Shown here in pieces: positions 12,504-56,218 of a DNA stretch of 64,000 bases. Both the position numbers and the translations under genes were made by a program. Source of the DNA: Nitrosococcus watsonii C-113 (GTDB lineage: Bacteria > Pseudomonadota > Gammaproteobacteria > Nitrosococcales > Nitrosococcaceae); contig NC_014315.1 of the NCBI RefSeq assembly GCF_000143085.1, forward strand, positions 2,820,001 to 2,884,000, in the 5' to 3' direction. How positions within the stretch are numbered: the first letter of the stretch is position 1; each line of letters starts with the position of its first letter. Below the pieces are notes generated by a model. The model saw nothing but the letters and a program-made list of their open reading frames with translations. It had not been told where the DNA came from and did not search any database.

Positions 12504-13415
12504 ATGCGTGAATTTGCCCGGTTTATTATGCGGGGCCGTCTCTACGCAATAGCTACCGCGGGATTGTTCGGCGCACTTGCTGTTGCGCTCCCTCCCCTAT
12601 CTCTCTTTAGCGGCGCCACCGTCGGCTTAACGACCTTGCGCCACGGCATGAAAGAAGGACTGGCCATTACCGCAGGCGCGGCCTTAGTGGTGGCAGTGAT
12701 ATTCTTAGCCATCGCGGGAAGGGCAGACTTATCCCTTCTCCTGCTGCTGGGATTATGGCTCCCCAATACCCTGGGGTGTTGGATTTTGCGGATCACGCAA
12801 TCCCAAGCTTCCACCCTGTTAATGGTTGGAGGCTTCTCTGCCTTGTTTGTAGTAAGCATGCATGCGTTAACAGGTGATGTCATCGCTTGGTGGCAGCAAT
12901 GGATTGAACAGGCCATAACTCGGGCGAACATCAAGGATGTTACGGTTGACCAGCTCGCTCAAGAAGGCGCGCTTACCTTGATGAACGGCCTGGTGGCCAT
13001 GGTTTTTGGTCTTAATCTCATGTTGACCATTCTGCTGGCCCGCTGGTGGCAATCCCTTCTCTACAATCCTGGAGGCTTTGCGAAAGAGTTCTATGAGTTA
13101 CGGTTGCCCCGCAGCCTTACCTATCTCACCGTACTTCTCTCTGCTCCGGTGCTTACGGGCGTTCTCGGTGAGAGAGGCCACCTATTGACCGATCTGTTTA
13201 TCGTAGCGGTCATGATGTATTTATTTCAGGGATTAGCCGCCATGCATAGCATGACAGCTACCCGTAATTTATCCCAATGGTGGCTGTTGCCTATCTATCT
13301 AGGGCTTTTCCTGATGCCCCCTCATTTTATCATTGGGCTGGCCCTGGTCGGAGTCGTGGATGGCTTGATCAATCTTCGCGGCAATCCTCCCCCTCCGCCG
13401 CCTGCCAAGGCATAG
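12504..13415 (+). CDS. Polytopic membrane protein, DUF2232/YybS-like
   Basis: A membrane protein of about 303 residues with at least seven hydrophobic segments, ending in a proline-rich tail (NPPPPPPAKA). The pattern of short N-terminal helices (LPPLSLFSGATVGLTTLRHG) followed by paired C-terminal helices (WWLLPIYLGLFLMPPHFIIG) resembles DUF2232 proteins, often coded near small-subunit ribosomal genes in gammaproteobacteria, but no such neighbours are present. I place the start at ATG 12504, after an AGGTAA site; a frame start at 12429 would add 25 polar residues. Function unknown. Confidence 0.65.
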   Translation: MREFARFIMRGRLYAIATAGLFGALAVALPPLSLFSGATVGLTTLRHGMKEGLAITAGAALVVAVIFLAIAGRADLSLLLLLGLWLPNTLGCWILRITQSQASTLLMVGGFSALFVVSMHALTGDVIAWWQQWIEQAITRANIKDVTVDQLAQEGALTLMNGLVAMVFGLNLMLTILLARWWQSLLYNPGGFAKEFYELRLPRSLTYLTVLLSAPVLTGVLGERGHLLTDLFIVAVMMYLFQGLAAMHSMTATRNLSQWWLLPIYLGLFLMPPHFIIGLALVGVVDGLINLRGNPPPPPPAKA

Positions 13416-14209
13416 CGTAGACGGCCGAATTTTGATATTCCTGAATCGCTCACCAGGCACCACCGGAGGTGGGTAACCGCCTCCGGCTTCCACAAAGCAC
13501 AGCATCAGTTTCCATACTCCAACGTTACTTCCGCTTACTTTGCCAACACGCCGCCCTCCTCGGCCTGCGATCATATCGACGGTAAAACTTAATCGCTTTT
13601 TTCCGCTGCCTACTGAACCAGCCAAATAGCCAATCCACGTCCAGCCACTACGGCACTTCCATTTCTCCAGACATCAAGTTGGCCTATCATCCAGTTTTCC
13701 AACCATACCGGCTCACTGCAAACTCAAGAGTTCTTATCTTACCGGTCTCAGCAAATAGGTTTTCTAATGATTAAAGCGCTGCGCATAGACGCCCCTCAGC
13801 TGCTGCATCTCCTGCGAGATTGCCCAACTTCATTAAAACAGTTGCAAACAGCGCCAAAGAATTCCTACTAAAACTCTCTCTTCTCATCCTCCAGATAGAT
13901 ATCCTTGTACCTATCTCCTCTCAAGCTCACATGATACAACACACTCGCAAAACCCCCGATGGTAGACCTTTCCTCTCCCTGTTCCATAGGAACGCTCTCG
14001 TGCCTGACACTGAACAGGCTCCCGTACTTGCTCAAAGAGCTTAGGTTGAAATTTAAGTTTTAAAGTTCATATGTATATCACCCCTTGGCAAAATTAAAGA
14101 CCTTGAGCTATAAGTATGATATTGGCGATTTTTTCCTGTGTATAGATAAGGCGCAGGTTAGACAATCTATTTCATGTTCGGCAGCGCAACCCACGATGGA
14201 GTTAGATCT
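13416..14209. other. Long gene-poor region with a transposase remnant
   Basis: About 800 bases without an intact gene. A 7-bp GC-rich inverted repeat (CCGGAGG...CCTCCGG, 13463-13486) lacks a T-run and is not a clear terminator. Frames over 13299-13625 on the minus strand have no family resemblance. A decayed tyrosine-transposase fragment lies at 13800-14045. This marks the left edge of the accessory block. Confidence 0.5.
13800..14045 (-). pseudogene. Degenerate REP-associated (Y1/IS200-like) tyrosine transposase remnant
   Basis: Read on the minus strand at about 13955-13880, one frame gives VLYHVSLRGDRYKDIYLEDE, which resembles the N-terminal signature of REP-associated tyrosine transposases (xLYHVTSRGdrrexIFxDDeDR). 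A stop follows directly after KREF, and the next stretch continues only in another frame. No start codon, catalytic Tyr region or complete domain remains. I read it as an old, dead fragment. The match is by motif memory only. Confidence 0.45.
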
Positions 14210-14842
14210 GTGAATGTGCTCGTATTCGGTGCATCGGGTGCGACCGGCCGTGAGGTAGTTAAGCACGCACTTGAACGCGGGCACTCCGTTGCCGCGTTTG
14301 TCCGTGACCCCGGCAAGTTTGAGATCAAGCATGCCAACCTGGCCCTGGCGGTCGGCGACGCGACGGAGTATGTGTCGGTTGAACATGCCTGCACGGGTCA
14401 GGATGCCGTCGCGAGTGCGTTGGGATCCGGCAATTCCCTGGGTTCGCACCCGACTTTGACCGATGGTGTCCAGAACATCATTCGAGCTATGGATCACGCA
14501 GAAATTCGCCGTTTCGTGTATTTGTCGATGCTCGGGGTCGATGGCAGCGGCTGGCAGCTCGGCTTAGTGGACCGATTCATCGTGCTACCGCTGCTGTTGC
14601 GCAACGTAGTGAAAGATCACGCGAGAGAGGAAGCGCTCATCAAGCAAAGCACGTTGGATTGGGTGATCGTGCGTCCTCCACGATTGACGAACGGACCGTA
14701 CACAGGGAGATATCGAAGCGGCGAGGATGTCAGGGAGAGAACGCTCCTGGCGTCAATTTCGCGTGCTGACGTGGCCGATTTTATGGTGAAGCAGTTTACG
14801 GGCGATCGCTATGTGCATGGAACACCGGCGGTACGGGGCTGA
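14210..14842 (+). CDS. NAD(P)H-binding SDR-type protein (NmrA/YwnB-like), cassette gene
   Basis: A protein of about 210 residues with an atypical extended-SDR Rossmann fold. The cofactor motif VFGASGATGREVV is at the N terminus; FVYLSMLGVDG and the conserved DWVIVRPPRLTNGP follow. Such proteins act as NAD(P)H sensors or reductases; the substrate is unknown. I prefer the GTG at 14210, eight bases after GGAG; an ATG at 14174 would add 12 residues. The gene ends some 80 bases before an attC-like core (GTTAGCT at 14923), and the following two genes are also single-gene units, so it looks like a gene cassette. Confidence 0.82.
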   Translation: MNVLVFGASGATGREVVKHALERGHSVAAFVRDPGKFEIKHANLALAVGDATEYVSVEHACTGQDAVASALGSGNSLGSHPTLTDGVQNIIRAMDHAEIRRFVYLSMLGVDGSGWQLGLVDRFIVLPLLLRNVVKDHAREEALIKQSTLDWVIVRPPRLTNGPYTGRYRSGEDVRERTLLASISRADVADFMVKQFTGDRYVHGTPAVRG

Positions 14843-14884
14843 TCGATAATCATGCAGCCAGCGGCGGCACCGAACAGGTCGTCA

Positions 14885-14929
14885 ATCCAGTGGACGCGCT
14901 GCGCGCGCCACTGATTTCTGGCGTTAGCT
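14885..14929 (+). repeat. attC-like site (partial)
   Basis: CCAGTGGACGCGC pairs imperfectly with GCGCGCCACTG and is followed by a GTTAGCT core box at 14923. The 5' core box is not clear. It separates the SDR cassette from the MAPEG cassette. Confidence 0.45.
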
Positions 14930-14948
14930 GAAACGGTGGAACCTTGTC

Positions 14949-15581
14949 GTGCTAGACGTAAAACAGAAAGGCGTGTTGCGGGGCATGCTTATTGGTACAG
15001 CTTTTGCTCTAGCTATTACTGTATTAGGTTCATGGCTCAACCCATTTTCGTTCTGCCCGAACATGAGCGAACTCGCACGATTAAATGTCGCCATCAAAAA
15101 TAGCTTGTTACCGGCGATTTGCTTGGCTATTGCTATCGGACGTCTAGCTAAGCACCGCTTCTTTAGCCCTGAAGATATTGATGGCGGAGACCTGACAGAG
15201 GCAACAGAGCAGGCAAAATTGTTGCAATCATTATTGCAAAATACGCTTGAGCAGTTTGCTTTCGCGGTGGCAGCGTACTGCGCTTGGGCTGTTGTGATGC
15301 CGTCAGCATGGTTATCTGTTGTGCCTTTGGCGGCTGCAGCTTTCATCGTGGGACGCATTTTGTTTTTTATTGGATATTCGCGCGGAGCATCCGCAAGAGC
15401 TATTGGCTTTACCTTGGCGTTTTACACCTCAGCAGCAATGTTGGTCTCCGTAACTGCAACCGTCTTTGTGCAACTTATTACAGCTAATAGATCGCTGCAG
15501 TTGGCCGCCCAAAGCGCTGGTGCGCTTGGTTTCCCTCCGCGGCCTGCGGCCGCTCCGGCGGCAACTGAGCTTCAGTGTTAG
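14949..15581 (+). CDS. MAPEG family membrane protein, cassette gene with attC-encoded tail
   Basis: A 210-residue protein of the MAPEG (eicosanoid/glutathione membrane enzyme) superfamily. The family core is NTLEQFAFAVAAYCAWA followed by GRILFFIGYSRG, with four hydrophobic segments; in the family these form a trimeric membrane glutathione-dependent enzyme. The last ~30 residues (from about NRSLQLAAQS to ATELQC) are encoded within the attC-like site at 15482-15583, and the TAG stop lies in its core box. That tail is therefore an accident of cassette structure rather than part of the fold. The start follows a weak ribosome site. Confidence 0.8.
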   Translation: MLDVKQKGVLRGMLIGTAFALAITVLGSWLNPFSFCPNMSELARLNVAIKNSLLPAICLAIAIGRLAKHRFFSPEDIDGGDLTEATEQAKLLQSLLQNTLEQFAFAVAAYCAWAVVMPSAWLSVVPLAAAAFIVGRILFFIGYSRGASARAIGFTLAFYTSAAMLVSVTATVFVQLITANRSLQLAAQSAGALGFPPRPAAAPAATELQC

Positions 15582-15583
15582 CG
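15482..15583 (+). repeat. attC-like site
   Basis: Left core AGCTAAT (15482), left arm CGCTGCAGTTGGCCGCC, right arm GGCGGCAACTGAGCTTCAG, right core GTTAGCG (15577). The arms pair with bulges, as in integron attC sites. It overlaps the 3' end of the MAPEG gene. Confidence 0.75.
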
Positions 15584-15601
15584 TTTGTAATGGAGGGAAG
15601 C

Positions 15602-16228
15602 ATGGACCCGTTAGTAATTGTCGGAATGATCGGCGTGGCAACTACAGCGATTGCCTCGTTTCTAAGCTATAGACTTGGACGTCAGTCTGAGTTTGCCATG
15701 GCTGAATGGATGCGCGAGGTACGCTCATGGGGAGCGCAGGTGGTATCCGCGTTATCTGACGCAGCGTATGGAATAACCAATCAACGGGGCGAATCAAAAG
15801 ACGAATCGCAATGGGTTAAACAGCTTTCTGTTCTTATTGAAGTTGGCCGATTCTATCTGCCAAACCAACATCAAGATCAGTACGGCCTAGATAAACCTCT
15901 GGCTTATCGGGGATTTCGCCACGCGACTCTAGACCCCTTGGTGGCGGCGATCAGAGTTATTCAGGGTGCGGCGCCTACTAGTATAGACAAGGGCCAGGTG
16001 CTTTGGGAACTTAGGCGGGAATTTGTGTCAAGCTTATTCGAAATACTTGGTCCCGATCATCACAATAGAATGATTGCAAAAATAATCCGAAAAAGCCATA
16101 GCTCCCGAAGCAATGATCTGCCATTAGGGGGGCTTCTACCTAGAAACGGGACTATTCCCCTTGGTTCTAAAGCAGTGCTCGACACGGTGGTTAAGCGGAT
16201 TAGATCTAAAAGCACATGTCAGAGCTAG
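15602..16228 (+). CDS. Hypothetical cassette protein with N-terminal membrane anchor
   Basis: A 208-residue protein of unknown function. One N-terminal hydrophobic segment (PLVIVGMIGVATTAIASFL) is followed by a cytoplasmic-looking domain starting SEFAMAEWMREVRSWGAQVV. I have a general memory of similar anchored proteins in integron cassettes but cannot name a family. The ATG at 15602 follows GGAGGG at good spacing and lies 20 bases after the preceding attC core; the stop is 18 bases before the next attC core. This is the classical one-gene cassette layout. Confidence 0.7.
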   Translation: MDPLVIVGMIGVATTAIASFLSYRLGRQSEFAMAEWMREVRSWGAQVVSALSDAAYGITNQRGESKDESQWVKQLSVLIEVGRFYLPNQHQDQYGLDKPLAYRGFRHATLDPLVAAIRVIQGAAPTSIDKGQVLWELRREFVSSLFEILGPDHHNRMIAKIIRKSHSSRSNDLPLGGLLPRNGTIPLGSKAVLDTVVKRIRSKSTCQS

Positions 16229-16245
16229 ATGTTCGTGGATTCCAA

Positions 16246-16326
16246 GGCTAACAATAGCGTCAACACGGACGTCTTAACCTTTCGCTTTGCTCCGGGTAAA
16301 GACGCCGGTTACGCTTAGCGTTATAT
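16246..16326 (+). repeat. attC-like site
   Basis: Core boxes GGCTAAC (16246) and GTTATAT (16320). Left arm AGCGTCAACACGGACGTCTT matches the complement of right arm AAAGACGCCGGTTACGCT with a few unpaired bases, the asymmetric pairing expected of attC. Confidence 0.75.
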
Positions 16327-16495
16327 GTTTCAAAATTCAAGGTAGCGAAGGGGCTCGGGCTAAACTAAAGCTTACTACCTAACCAATCTCGCAGTGAGAG
16401 TTGGTTGCAATCAGCCCTCTAACGAATCGCAGCAGGTGACGTTTGACTCGTTAGGCCCGAAAACAAGTTTAGCATTTTTTCTTACCGAGAAAACA

Positions 16496-16942
16496 ATGTC
16501 AGAAACTGTAGATAATATTCTCATAGAAGCAATCAACGATGAATACAAGGCACGTGCAACATACCGCCATGTCATTCGTAAGTTCGGTGAAATACGTCCC
16601 TTCATTAATATCGTAGATGCGGAAAGCCGGCATATCGAAGCATTGTTACCTTTGTTTCAAAAATAGGGTGTTGCTGTTCCAGAAGATAATTGGGCTTCAC
16701 GAACTGAAGCGCCTCAAGCTGTTCTGGAAGCCCGTCAAATTGGAGTCGAGGCGGAAATCGAAAACGCAAATATGTATGATAGGTTACTTCAATCGATAGC
16801 AGATTATCCAGACGTTCAGAGAGTACTCATTCAATTACAAAGAGCATCCATGGATAATCACCTTCCTGCCTTTCGCCGATGCGTTGAAAGAGGCGGAAGG
16901 CAGGGGCAAGGTTGGCAACAGCGCCATCGCCACGATGCCTGA
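16496..16942 (+). pseudogene. Ferritin-like (DUF2202-type) protein interrupted by an in-frame amber codon
   Basis: One reading frame of 149 codons codes for a small four-helix ferritin-like protein. The helix-1 metal ligand region INDEYKARATYRHV and the ESRHIEALLPLF segment are followed by a second half with EARQIGVEAEIENANMYDRL. A TAG at 16664-16666 splits it exactly where a Tyr codon would be expected (QK-stop-GVAVPEDNW). The frame continues undisturbed on both sides and is free of other stops, so the mutation is recent, a sequencing error, or the stop is read through. An attC-like GCCTAAC box starts 12 bases after the final stop. Confidence 0.75.
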
Positions 16943-16954
16943 GACCAACTAATC

Positions 16955-17190
16955 GCCTAACAAAGCAACCGCAAGAGGTAATCGCCCCATGGGATGAATT
17001 TCAAGAACTCGCAGAAATTCTGGGCTTAGATTTAGATTCAGAAGCTCTGGAAGATTTGAGACAAACTCGTGAGGACAGAGAGAGTAGAAAATGTGACGCC
17101 TACATAGATCTGCATAGTATCTGATCATGTATACAATGGTGGTACATCACCATAGACCATATTGGACCGCGTGGCGATGTATTGTAGATT
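16955..17190 (+). pseudogene. Truncated and internally deleted second copy of the RelB/RelE pair
   Basis: From about 16965 the sequence is a near-copy of 18861-19284. It covers most of the antitoxin (IPWDEFQELAEILGLDLDSE in the intact copy) and then the first bases of the toxin (GTATACAATGGTGGTACATC). After those the toxin jumps directly to its last ~30 bases (ACCATATTGGACCGCGTGGC). The antitoxin start is lost at the left junction, where an attC-like GCCTAACAAAGC box (16955) abuts the copy, and about 200 bases of toxin are missing. Neither product can be functional. Confidence 0.8.
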
Positions 17191-17212
17191 ATTTTGAAGT
17201 AAAGGAACTAAA

Positions 17213-17488
17213 ATGGGAAAAGAAACCAGCTTGTTCAAAAGTGAAGAATCGAAGAAACGGGCCGAAGTGAGTGAGTTTCTGCGCCAAATTGCTGAAAGAA
17301 TCGCAAAGGGTGAAGTTGTCTTGCGACAGGGAACAGAAGAACTTGTGCTACAAATCCCAGAGAATCTGATTTTGGAGGTCCAAGTCGAGAACGAGGATAA
17401 GAAAACCAGAGGCCTCCAACATAGCTTGGAGATAGAGATAAAATGGTTTGATAATGATGGGTCAAGCGGTCCATTAGAGCTAGGCTGA
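17213..17488 (+). CDS. Amphi-Trp domain-containing protein
   Basis: A 91-residue protein of the amphi-Trp domain family, function unknown. Recognisable features are ETSLFKSEESKKRAEVSEFL at the N terminus, the central LRQGTEELVLQIPENLILEV and the C-terminal LEIEIKWFD with the conserved Trp. Length is usual. AAGGAAC eight bases before the ATG is an acceptable ribosome site. It lies between the deleted RelBE copy and the alcohol dehydrogenase; a common transcript with the latter is possible, though about 235 bases separate them. Confidence 0.82.
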   Translation: MGKETSLFKSEESKKRAEVSEFLRQIAERIAKGEVVLRQGTEELVLQIPENLILEVQVENEDKKTRGLQHSLEIEIKWFDNDGSSGPLELG

Positions 17489-17722: not shown

Positions 17723-18778
17723 ATGAAGGCATTCGTAATGTTAAACATCGGGCAAGTGGGGGTCGTTGAAAAGGATCGGCCGATCTGTGGGCCTCTGGAC
17801 GCGATCCTGCGCCCGACGAAGGGGCTAATCTGCACATCTGATGTGCATACCGTCCATGGTGCGATTGGAGAACGGGAGAACCTCACCCTGGGACATGAAG
17901 TTGTCGGCGTGGTCGAGGAAGTTGGAGCGTTGGTTGCCAACTTCAAACAGGGAGACCGGGTAGCGGTTGGTGCTATCACCCCGGACTGGGGTTCAGACGC
18001 TGCGCAGGGAGGCCATTCGTCGCAGTCTGGTGGAGCACTGGGAGGCTGGAAGTTTGCCAATATCAAAGACGGCACCTTTGCCGAGTACGTGCATGTCAAC
18101 GAAGCGGACGCCAACCTCGCGCTGATCCCCAAGGGTGTGCCAGACGAGTCGGCTGTGTATGTGTGCGACATGATGAGCACTGGATTCATGGCCGCAGAGA
18201 ACGCCAAAATCCCCATCGGTGGCACTGTCGTAGTCTTCGCCCAGGGACCTGTGGGCCTCATGTGCACTGCGGGGGCACGACTGCAGGGTGCCGGTTTCGT
18301 AATCGCTGTTGAAAGCGTGCCCAAGCGCCAGGAGCTGGCCCGGCACTTCGGGGCTGACAAGGTGGTGGACTTTACCAAGGTGGACGTGGTAGAGCGGATT
18401 CTTGAGTTCACGAACGGCGAAGGCGTGGATGCGGCCATCGATGCGCTAGGCACATCCAAGGTGCTCCAACAGTGCGTCAAGGTGACCAAGCCCGGCGGTA
18501 TGATCTCCAACGCTGGTTACCATGGTGACGGCGAGTTTGTCGAAATTCCCCGCGTGGAGTGGGGCGTCGGAATGGCGGAGAAGGACATCGCCACGGGTCT
18601 CTGCCCAGGCGGACATCTACGGCTCTCCCGTCTACTGAGGTTGCTGGAAACCGGGCGGATCGATCCCACTCCGATGACTACCCATACCTTTGGATTCAAT
18701 GAAATCGAGAAGGCATTCCGCATGATGGAGAAAAAAGAGGACGGTATGATCAAACCGATGATTGATTTCGAAGCCTGA
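17723..18778 (+). CDS. Zinc-dependent secondary alcohol dehydrogenase (TbADH/CbADH-like)
   Basis: A 351-residue medium-chain dehydrogenase that resembles the NADP-dependent secondary alcohol dehydrogenases of Thermoanaerobacter and Clostridium along its length. Catalytic zinc ligands are C37 (LICTSDVHT), H58-E59 (LGHEVVG) and the Asp in CDMMSTGF. The Rossmann segment reads FAQGPVGLMCTAGARLQGAG, and the C-terminal EWGVGMAEKDIATGLCPGG is diagnostic of the group. It probably interconverts secondary alcohols and ketones in the cytoplasm. The ATG at 17723 follows GAGGAGG; earlier in-frame starts are not supported. Its accessory context suggests transfer. Confidence 0.9.
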   Translation: MKAFVMLNIGQVGVVEKDRPICGPLDAILRPTKGLICTSDVHTVHGAIGERENLTLGHEVVGVVEEVGALVANFKQGDRVAVGAITPDWGSDAAQGGHSSQSGGALGGWKFANIKDGTFAEYVHVNEADANLALIPKGVPDESAVYVCDMMSTGFMAAENAKIPIGGTVVVFAQGPVGLMCTAGARLQGAGFVIAVESVPKRQELARHFGADKVVDFTKVDVVERILEFTNGEGVDAAIDALGTSKVLQQCVKVTKPGGMISNAGYHGDGEFVEIPRVEWGVGMAEKDIATGLCPGGHLRLSRLLRLLETGRIDPTPMTTHTFGFNEIEKAFRMMEKKEDGMIKPMIDFEA

Positions 18779-18779
18779 A

Positions 18780-18810
18780 GAGTTCTGTCAAGTGCGCAGG
18801 CCCGTTAGGC
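18780..18810 (+). repeat. Right half of an attC-like site
   Basis: AGTGCGCAGGCCC followed by GTTAGGC (18804) just after the dehydrogenase stop. The left arm is missing. Together with the solitary GCCTAAC box at 16955 it may be one attC split by the 16.96-18.78 kb insert. Confidence 0.4.
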
Positions 18811-18830
18811 GCTGTGGAGTAAATGACCTG

Positions 18831-19028
18831 ATGAACATTCATAAAAAAATAGTTGTTGACGAACAAGGCAATCCGCAAGAGGTAATCATCCCATGGGATG
18901 AATTTCAAGAACTTGCAGAAATTTTGGGCTTAGATTTAGATTCAGAAGCTCTGGAAGATTTGAGACAATCTCGTGAAGACAGAGAGAGTGGTAAACGCGA
19001 CGCCTACATAGATCTGGATAGCATCTGA
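18831..19028 (+). CDS. RelB-like antitoxin
   Basis: A 65-residue acidic antitoxin (MNIHKKIVVDEQGNPQEV at the N terminus; the C-terminal half is a charged helix with LEDLRQSREDRESGKRDAY). The beta-strand start followed by an IPWDEFQELAEIL helix resembles Phd/RelB-type DNA-binding antitoxins. It is two bases upstream of the toxin gene. In-frame starts upstream would read through a preceding attC half-site, so the ATG at 18831 is preferred. A truncated duplicate lies at 16955-17190. Confidence 0.78.
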   Translation: MNIHKKIVVDEQGNPQEVIIPWDEFQELAEILGLDLDSEALEDLRQSREDRESGKRDAYIDLDSI

Positions 19029-19030
19029 TC

Positions 19031-19300
19031 ATGTATGCAATGGTGGTACATCGCCGGGCTGCTCGTTATTTGAGAAAACTGTCTCAAGATCAGCAAGTCA
19101 AAATAAAACATGTACTGACCCAGATGAAGAACGGTCCGCTTGGATTATCAGGTATTAAGAGTATGGTCGGTGATTGGGCAGGTTATCGTAGAATACGAGT
19201 GGGCAATGTTCGGATCATTTTTTGGATTGATGAACTCAAGAATGTCGTCTATGTAGACCATATTGGACCGCGTGGCGATGTATACAAGAATAAAGCCTAA
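19031..19300 (+). CDS. RelE/ParE family toxin
   Basis: An 89-residue mRNA interferase-type toxin. It has the RelE pattern: HRRAARYLRKLSQDQQVKI helix, the QMKNGPLGLSG loop, then DWAGYRRIRVGNVRIIFWID and a final VVYVDHIGPRGDVY strand. Basic residues R and K expected in the ribosome-bound active site are present. It is co-transcribed with the antitoxin just upstream (2-base gap). A copy lacking most of the coding region sits 1.9 kb upstream. Confidence 0.85.
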   Translation: MYAMVVHRRAARYLRKLSQDQQVKIKHVLTQMKNGPLGLSGIKSMVGDWAGYRRIRVGNVRIIFWIDELKNVVYVDHIGPRGDVYKNKA

Positions 19301-37405: not shown

Positions 37406-37466
37406 CGCGAACGCCAGAAATCAGCGGCGCGGCTTTGCCGCGTCCGACTGCATGCGCTTGTTAGCG
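37406..37466 (-). repeat. attC-like site
   Basis: On the minus strand: core CGCTAAC (37466), arm AAGCGCATGCAGTCGGACG, loop arms GCGGCAAAGCCGC, and far core GTTCGCG (37406). It overlaps the 3' end of the antitoxin gene 37421-37738. Confidence 0.7.
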
Positions 37467-45447: not shown

Positions 45448-45545
45448 GCATAACGCCTGAAGCTCAGTTGCGCCGGAGCGCGAAGCGCGGAGGGAACCCA
45501 AAGCGCGCCAGCGCTTTGGGCGTCAACTGCAGCGACTTGTTAGGC
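45448..45545 (-). repeat. attC-like site (98 bases)
   Basis: Plus-strand view: GCATAAC (45448), arm GCCTGAAGCTCAGTTGCGCC, loop palindrome CCCAAAGCGC/GCGCTTTGGG, arm GGCGTCAACTGCAGCGACTT, core GTTAGGC (45539-45545). All attC elements are present. One of the clearest sites. Confidence 0.85.
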
Positions 45546-53264: not shown

Positions 53265-53323
53265 GTTCTCCCGCATACATAGGCGCACGGCATCTGATGA
53301 TGCAGGAGGCTTTGCCAGTCAAA
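53245..53323. repeat. Palindromic repeat element, hairpin part
   Basis: GTCGGGAAACTGACGGGTAA, hairpin TCCCGCATACATAGG...GATGATGCAGGAGG, ending TTTGCCAGTCAAAC. No right terminal repeat. It abuts the attC-like site at 53318. Confidence 0.7.
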
Positions 53324-53392
53324 CGCCTAGCATCACTGGCAAAATTGAGAGCGTGGCGAGCAATTTTGTCCGAGTGCACGCCATTGTTATGC
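53318..53392 (-). repeat. attC-like site
   Basis: On the minus strand GCATAAC (53392-53386), arm AATGGCGTGCACTCGG, inner arms ACAAAATTGCTC and CTCTCAATTTTGCC, far core GTTTGAC (53324-53318). Confidence 0.7.
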
Positions 53393-56153: not shown

Positions 56154-56218
56154 CGCGAACGCCGACCTTCACCGGGCGCGACCGAAAGGAGCGCTCCGCG
56201 TGCAAGGCATTGTTAGGC
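56154..56218 (-). repeat. attC-like site whose core supplies a stop codon
   Basis: On the minus strand GCCTAAC (56218-56212), arms AATGCCTTGCACGCGGAGCG and GGTGAAGGTCGGC, far core GTTCGCG (56160-56154). The TAA of GCCTAAC is the stop of the 56213-56851 gene. Confidence 0.78.

Follow-up and report, generated by a model that had tools for sequence, protein, structure and literature searches.

Three consecutive genes on the + strand, each ending at an attC-like site, raise the question of what structure they belong to: a mobile cassette array, an ordinary gene cluster, or the remains of a complete integron. They were analyzed within a window of 64 kb (bases 2,820,001-2,884,000 of contig 1, C1) of the source genome G000, which comprises 3,373,286 bases in 3 contigs, and compared with three other Nitrosococcus genomes, G001, G002, and G003, which we take to be N. 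halophilus, N. oceani, and N. wardiae, respectively. An earlier note on this DNA had described a small + strand array of three cassettes, with the SDR, MAPEG, and hypothetical protein genes as one-gene units. The array is real, as judged by matches to an attC model and by the pairing of the R'' boxes with their own cassette starts, and the genes do form single-gene units, all on the + strand. The description held for the array of three cassettes but was incomplete, missing the array's own attI and truncated intI; the locus is very probably a small chromosomal integron whose integrase gene was destroyed. Its cassettes and genes are as follows:

14177-14923, + strand: cassette 1, reaching from the core of attI to the G within R' of attC1
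14210..14842, + strand: gene for an SDR-type NAD(P)-binding protein (Pfam NAD_binding_10, PF13460, E 2.9e-47, read from 14174)
14924-15577, + strand: cassette 2, core to core
14949..15581, + strand: gene for a MAPEG-family membrane protein (PF01124, E 3.6e-11)
15578-16320, + strand: cassette 3, core to core
15602..16228, + strand: gene for a hypothetical protein with a hydrophobic N-terminal segment (by eye) and a soluble part

The G+C content is 58.6% for cassette 1, 50.5% for cassette 2, and 49.0% for cassette 3, with 52.2% for the window. An Rfam search of the window at gathering thresholds gave no match; therefore, we built our own covariance model (R1) from 11 aligned attC sites, all outside the window (eight from G000, two from G002, and one from G001) and including four sites of the intact integron of G000 (C1:70.9-77 kb). 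In this seed alignment 88.4% of cells conform to the R''/R' and L''/L' pairing, both sides have changed in 11 of the 18 pairs, and shifting the partner by one base lowers the pairing to 30-39%. The covariance search, which the earlier note had proposed, recovered all three sites on the + strand:

14869-14929, + strand: attC1 (R1 25.7 bits, E 7.9e-4 in 64 kb)
15482-15583, + strand: attC2 (R1 40.5 bits, E 2.9e-7 in 64 kb)
16246-16326, + strand: attC3 (R1 21.1 bits, E 0.0011 in 7 kb, with filters off only)

The previously given coordinates agree exactly for the second and third sites, and the first starts at 14869 rather than 14885. By the model attC3 is the weakest of the three, since it was reported neither by the filtered run over the whole window nor by the whole-genome run; despite its low score, it is backed by the relation between R'' and the start of its own cassette. 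In the whole-genome attC runs, 150 out of 1002 to 1384 candidates were scored for each genome, which makes their counts lower bounds. At E of 10 or less, R1 reported 11 sites in the window, attC1 and attC2 among them, and the other nine, spread over 37.4-56.2 kb, are all on the - strand. The distance of 21 kb to this main array and its opposite strand had been described correctly, the nearest main-array attC being at 37406-37466 on the - strand. The sequence of attC2 is 85% identical to 45457-45543 (- strand). Single-strand DNA folds of attC1-3 gave z-scores of -2.3 to -3.8 against dinucleotide shuffles on both strands. Each gene is followed on its own strand by the R''-L''...L'-R' architecture of attC, the arrangement expected of a cassette array. 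Hairpin scans produced many false matches (of the three sites, two scans picked up attC2 alone and a stricter one picked up none), and they were therefore used for collecting seeds and not as evidence.

The core boxes differ between the three sites, as had been noticed, and such differences are what mobile cassettes should show. Cleavage by the integrase IntI falls between the G and the TT of the R' core, so that an R'' box is expected to match the start of its own cassette and not the neighboring R'. For attC1 and attC2, R'' pairs at 6/7 positions with its own cassette start versus 5/7 with the adjacent R', and for attC3 at 6/7 versus 4/7, giving 18/21 versus 14/21 in total. The own-start assignment is the best of 24 possible ones, the next best reaching 17. 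Two other arrays of G000 gave 34/35 versus 24/35 and 30/35 versus 26/35; for the three arrays pooled, own starts account for 82/91 and adjacent R' boxes for 64/91, and 82 was reached in 0 of 20,000 permutations. Exceptions were observed beside the intact intI, where one of the five sites favors the neighbor (5 versus 7) and another pairs equally with both (5 and 5). In the array studied here, complementarity of R'' to the core of its own cassette, as expected of mobile units with G/TT cores at their ends, was found at three of three sites.

Upstream of cassette 1, three further features were identified:

13559..13978, - strand: remnant of a decayed transposase gene of the Y1 type (IS200-like), recognized by DNA similarity to G001 genes and replacing the rest of intI
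13979..14070, - strand: 5' stump of intI, ~92 bp, about the first 30 codons
14137..14182, + strand: attI, with the core G/TTCGGC at 14176-14182

With an attI and a truncated intI of its own, the locus amounts to a decayed integron rather than a bare array. As regards the attI, positions 14137-14181 are 84% identical over 45 bases to C1:72136-72179, the end of the attI of the intact integron (L012, L020, L021), whose attC sites are also found by R1; that integron differs in having a full-length IntI, a longer spacer between intI and attI, and other cassettes. With up to 3 mismatches allowed, the attI motif GCAGGTTAGNCANTCTATTTCATGTT occurs once in the window (14153-14178, 0 mismatches) and 0 times in 100 shuffles. 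The larger - strand array is thus without it, and the three-cassette array is the only one in the window that carries it. Nine intI/attI regions were aligned, eight of which reach the end of attI: six, the window included, end in ATTTCATGTT, one in ATTTCATGAT, and one in ATTTTATGTT. In the window, the end reads ...GCAGGTTAGACAATCTATTTCATG/TTCGGC and falls precisely at the start of cassette 1. By sequence, then, an attI adjoins the first cassette as in an integron, and in place of the full-length intI of a complete integron there is only the stump at 13979-14070; the presence of two or more attC sites with no functional intI in the vicinity is also what defines a CALIN.

The complement of the intI start codon was located by eye at 14068-14070. 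Positions 13980-14132 share 77% DNA identity with C1:71823-71976, which spans the 5' part of the intact intI and the sequence upstream of it, and the stump was also aligned with six other intI 5' regions. Besides this stump, no IntI match was found at the window region of G000. The window stump alone gave no significant protein match to two IntI queries (E 1.1 and 0.48), and the orthologous stump of G002 matched IntI at E 4e-9 and 3e-11; the queries counted were L012 and L045, the longest frame of L044 being left out as it does not read as an integrase. The transposase fragment, whose right boundary (13978) was set by eye on the alignment, resembles G001 genes at L042, L037, and L040, with a 276-aa member matching Pfam Y1_Tnp (E 5.8e-13). 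A promoter driving the cassettes (Pc) was sought between 13900 and 14210, which holds no + strand consensus site, by a scan without power over chance (4 found and 2.3 expected in 13900-16500).

The same platform was found in G002. With gaps left out, identity at the orthologous site is 91.5% for the DUF2232 flank, 81.3% for the intI/attI part, and 82.8% over 412 aligned bases for the transposase fragment; for the whole platform with gaps counted it is 70%. The junction between intI and transposase is the same in both genomes, from which we infer that intI was probably cut before the split from G002. The cassettes beside attI are HicB and GFA in G002 and SDR, MAPEG, and hypothetical in the window. 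The first G002 cassette starts exactly at the attI core, with which its R'' pairs 7/7 (by eye). R1 scores at this site are low, namely 19.7 bits (E 0.013) for the attC of an addiction-module gene and 13.3 bits (E 0.4) for that of HicB, and no attC was found by R1 behind GFA at E of 2 or less. The addiction-module gene connects the right end of the two arrays, as the window retains a relic of it:

16339..16450, + strand: remnant of a lost last cassette, in which the antidote gene of an addiction module survives at its 3' end and its attC in the left half

This relic is 89.7% identical over 107 aligned bases to 14237-14343 of the G002 locus L063, which carries an intact copy of the gene (PF21716, E 6.7e-24). 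In G001 and G003, the DUF2232 gene is followed by other genes and the platform is absent from this site; window positions 13400-17300 have no DNA match in the stretches at the DUF2232 site of these genomes (L064, L065). The MAPEG and hypothetical proteins have no protein relative in G001-G003, and the DNA of the array, by which the SDR gene was also looked for, matches these genomes only in attC2-like stretches. A stable chromosomal cluster of the three genes in relatives, named earlier as the finding that would speak against an array, was sought in the three genomes of the genus and not found.

Relatives of the cassette genes were collected from 368 other genomes sampled from the class. For the SDR gene, the GTG at 14210 is the preferred start, the ATG at 14174 falling within attI, and for most of the best relatives the alignment begins at the first or second residue of the protein read from 14210. 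At E 1e-20, 16 of the 368 genomes contain SDR relatives, with 41-48% identity for the best eight. MAPEG relatives were found in eight genomes, three of them at 46-50% identity, and relatives of the hypothetical protein in three, the best at 37%. The latter protein has no Pfam family over the cut-off (best HIG_1_N, E 0.056), no match in NCBIfam (E 0.1), PHROGs (E 0.01), or PADLOC (E 0.01), and no relative by a pattern scan of the genome collection or by a plasmid search; the loci of its relatives (L148-L150) contain no attC at E of 2 or less. The MAPEG relatives on plasmids are distant (18 records, all under 60% identity).

Whether the same genes serve as cassettes elsewhere, a check suggested together with the original description, was answered in part by an attC scan of 24 loci of MAPEG and SDR relatives, two loci of the source genome being left out. 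A MAPEG relative forms a cassette in G396 (L124), with an attC of 24.7 bits at its stop codon (E 0.0017). Less firmly, the SDR gene is a cassette in G416, where an attC (25.6 bits) precedes the relative and half an attC lies behind it, as judged by eye. All three genes together as cassettes were not found among the 368 sampled genomes; relatives of the MAPEG and hypothetical proteins co-occur in G312, and those of MAPEG and SDR in G396, in both cases on separate contigs. Among 45 further MAPEG loci from named genomes, an attC at the 3' end at E of 0.5 or less was found in two, L177 (E 0.002, at the MAPEG stop codon), which appears to be the same locus as L124, and L151, where sub-threshold R1 matches of 17.4 and 17.1 bits (E 0.10 and 0.12) flank the relative; most MAPEG relatives have no neighboring attC that is recognized by R1, though this model represents sites of Nitrosococcus. 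In total, R1 gave 10 matches at E of 0.5 or less at these 45 loci, in L151, L153, L154, L157, L177, and L187. A hairpin scan of the 45 MAPEG 3' ends gave two low-score matches (L175 and L186) and was not used as a count, since it missed the known L177 site.

The MAPEG frame of the window passes through attC2 and stops inside its R' box, so that the last ~33 residues are translated attC. Three MAPEG relatives end about where the attC begins, and the stop codon of the relative at L124 lies within the R'' box; the window frame misses it and continues through the attC hairpin. At 15482-15581, the frame has thus lost a stop that at least one relative has in the R'' box of its attC. Of the eight genomes counted above for MAPEG, G335 gave a weak match confined to this attC-derived tail, and six attC sites are located there. 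As a separate observation, the six-attC array of that genome (L128) scores 44.7-68.2 bits with R1, as good as the sites of the genus itself.

The only full-length intI of G000 without stops is located at C1:70943-71881, ~0.57 Mb from the array if the chromosome is circular; its product scores 483.9 bits to TIGR02249 (cut-off 265). In G002, no intI over the family cut-off was found, only fragments. Matches to the attI region number three in G000, four in G001, six in G002, and five in G003, counts that include several short matches, at least two of them too short to count as attI (25 bases in G001 and 27 bases outside the core in G002). A second integrase lineage, 46% identical to the intact IntI, was observed in G000 at L022 9607-10569 (C1:2117612-2118565), its frame being interrupted by two TGA and two TAG codons; attC sites adjoin it on the - strand. 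Another attI is located at L066 9187-9231 (within C1:2745187-2745277) and is followed by four attC sites at E below 0.001, the cassettes resembling HicAB pairs by eye. No IntI match was found by tblastn beside this attI; the sole row covers aa 1-36 of the L045 frame, upstream of its integrase part.

From the attC sites, attI, intI stump, shared junction, and different G002 content, all of which can be read in the DNA, we infer a mode of insertion, an order of events, and a possible supply of integrase in trans. Cassettes would have been inserted at the attI (14137-14182) by site-specific recombination at G/TT, each new one being placed next to attI, which would give the order attI-SDR-MAPEG-hypothetical followed by the older addiction-module relic. 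Before the split from G002, the local intI would have been cut to ~30 codons, a transposase fragment replacing the rest. The array would now be either frozen or mobile only in trans, via an integrase encoded elsewhere.

Two explanations dispense with an integron platform at this site. Three co-directional genes with short gaps might form an ordinary cluster or operon with hairpins between the genes that look like attC only coincidentally; the E-values of the attC model, the own-start complementarity, and the attI contradict this, as do the absence of the MAPEG and hypothetical proteins from the three sister genomes and the restriction of the DNA matches there to attC2-like stretches, and we give the idea almost no credence. 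A loose CALIN, arising by off-target insertion by a distant integrase or cut away from its integron by rearrangement, would likewise have no platform of its own. It would account for the lack of an intact intI near the array, the only full-length, stop-free copy being that at C1:70943-71881, yet it is very improbable in view of an attI with the right core directly before cassette 1, an intI 5' stump in the canonical divergent position, and the same arrangement at the orthologous site of G002.

Within the preferred explanation, an integron with a destroyed integrase gene, it is a further question whether the array has exchanged cassettes since. The intI/transposase junction is common with G002 and the cassettes differ, so that a change of cassettes after the loss of intI is possible, and IntI acting in trans may have made it. 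Possibly, instead, different parts of a longer ancestral array were lost. In that case the array would have been inert since the loss of intI, the two species shedding different parts by deletion or by RecA acting between similar attC sites; we regard this as an even question, one whose probability overlaps with that of the preferred explanation itself. The right-end relic common to G002, the similarity that attC sites within the genus can show (85%), and the lack of an intI over the family cut-off in G002 are consistent with an inert array. The exact placement of the first G002 cassette at the attI core, with 7/7 pairing of its R'', argues against it, as do the precise core junctions of the three window cassettes, which are expected of IntI but not impossible for RecA between attC copies. 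More broadly, genomes of the Nitrosococcus type may contain a dispersed integron, in which several attI platforms per chromosome, most of them without an integrase, are filled and emptied in trans by a few intact IntI at most, an idea we hold only tentatively and rather doubt. If it were true, the three-cassette array would be its clearest case, since the truncation of its intI apparently predates the divergence from G002 and yet the two genomes carry different cassettes at attI.

Integrons whose integrase is dead are already known, and the array is of such a kind, as follows from the share of intI pseudogenes and the proposed CALIN origins in the portions of the literature available to us. 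There, about one in three intI genes was classed as a pseudogene, and about a fifth of the bacteria with integrons carried two or more intI (Nemergut et al., 2008, PMC2426708); the definition of CALIN is accompanied by three proposed origins, the loss of intI among them (PMC8618304); and cassette arrays without a local integrase are stated to be movable in trans (PMC12444791, on Xanthomonas integrons). As in integrons with an inactivated intI (PMC2426708, PMC12444791, as far as these sources were available), which was lost there by mutation or truncation, attC cassettes are kept here after truncation of intI, and variable cassettes occupy one chromosomal site. Unlike in those accounts, a Y1-type transposase fragment lies at the truncation point, ~30 codons are left, and an intact integrase is encoded elsewhere in the genome. 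With CALIN, as defined in the accessible part of PMC8618304, the array has in common that its three attC sites have no functional integrase gene next to them, but it retains attI and a recognizable intI stump, which makes the loss of intI, one of the proposed origins, directly visible. Thus, an array filed as CALIN may be a platform with attI still present. The site represents one stage of integron decay at a defined position in two species, with stump, attI, and last cassette in common and different cassettes in the middle, and it allows one to ask whether an integron without integrase still exchanges cassettes via an integrase encoded elsewhere. Less usual, it seems, is how many attI-like places each genome of the genus contains. 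In the accessible parts of the literature on Nitrosococcus integrons, gene cassettes, and attC, no treatment of this locus was met, and no work on several attI sites in one genome was found by title. The "Nitrosococcus mobilis" of the integron literature is presumably another organism. The part of PMC2426708 that was available writes Nitrococcus mobilis.

Several minor observations concern the rest of the window. Two of the attC matches on the - strand lie beyond the main array, at 53318-53392 and 56154-56218 (30.2 and 31.7 bits), so the main array may extend to 56 kb. Between 37376 and 55514, a repeat ending in AATCGGGGAGTTGAC is present in 11 copies (up to 2 mismatches) versus 0.08 expected, and in places it starts, by eye, in the R' box of an attC of this array. 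It looks like a small palindromic element landing in attC sites, and similar stretches also occur in L021, L022, and L023. Just behind the three-cassette array, the 511 bp at 16442-16952 are 92% identical to C1:2739624-2740134, with an internal stop in common; the segment is ferritin/rubrerythrin-like by eye, its first frame has no Pfam match, and its second copy follows a different array that also has an attI. Finally, 16959-17151 is a decayed copy (92%) of 18862-19055, part of a toxin-antitoxin pair whose intact copy (18762-19300) matches Pfam RelB-like and ParE_toxin, and the decayed and intact copies flank the Amphi-Trp and alcohol dehydrogenase genes.
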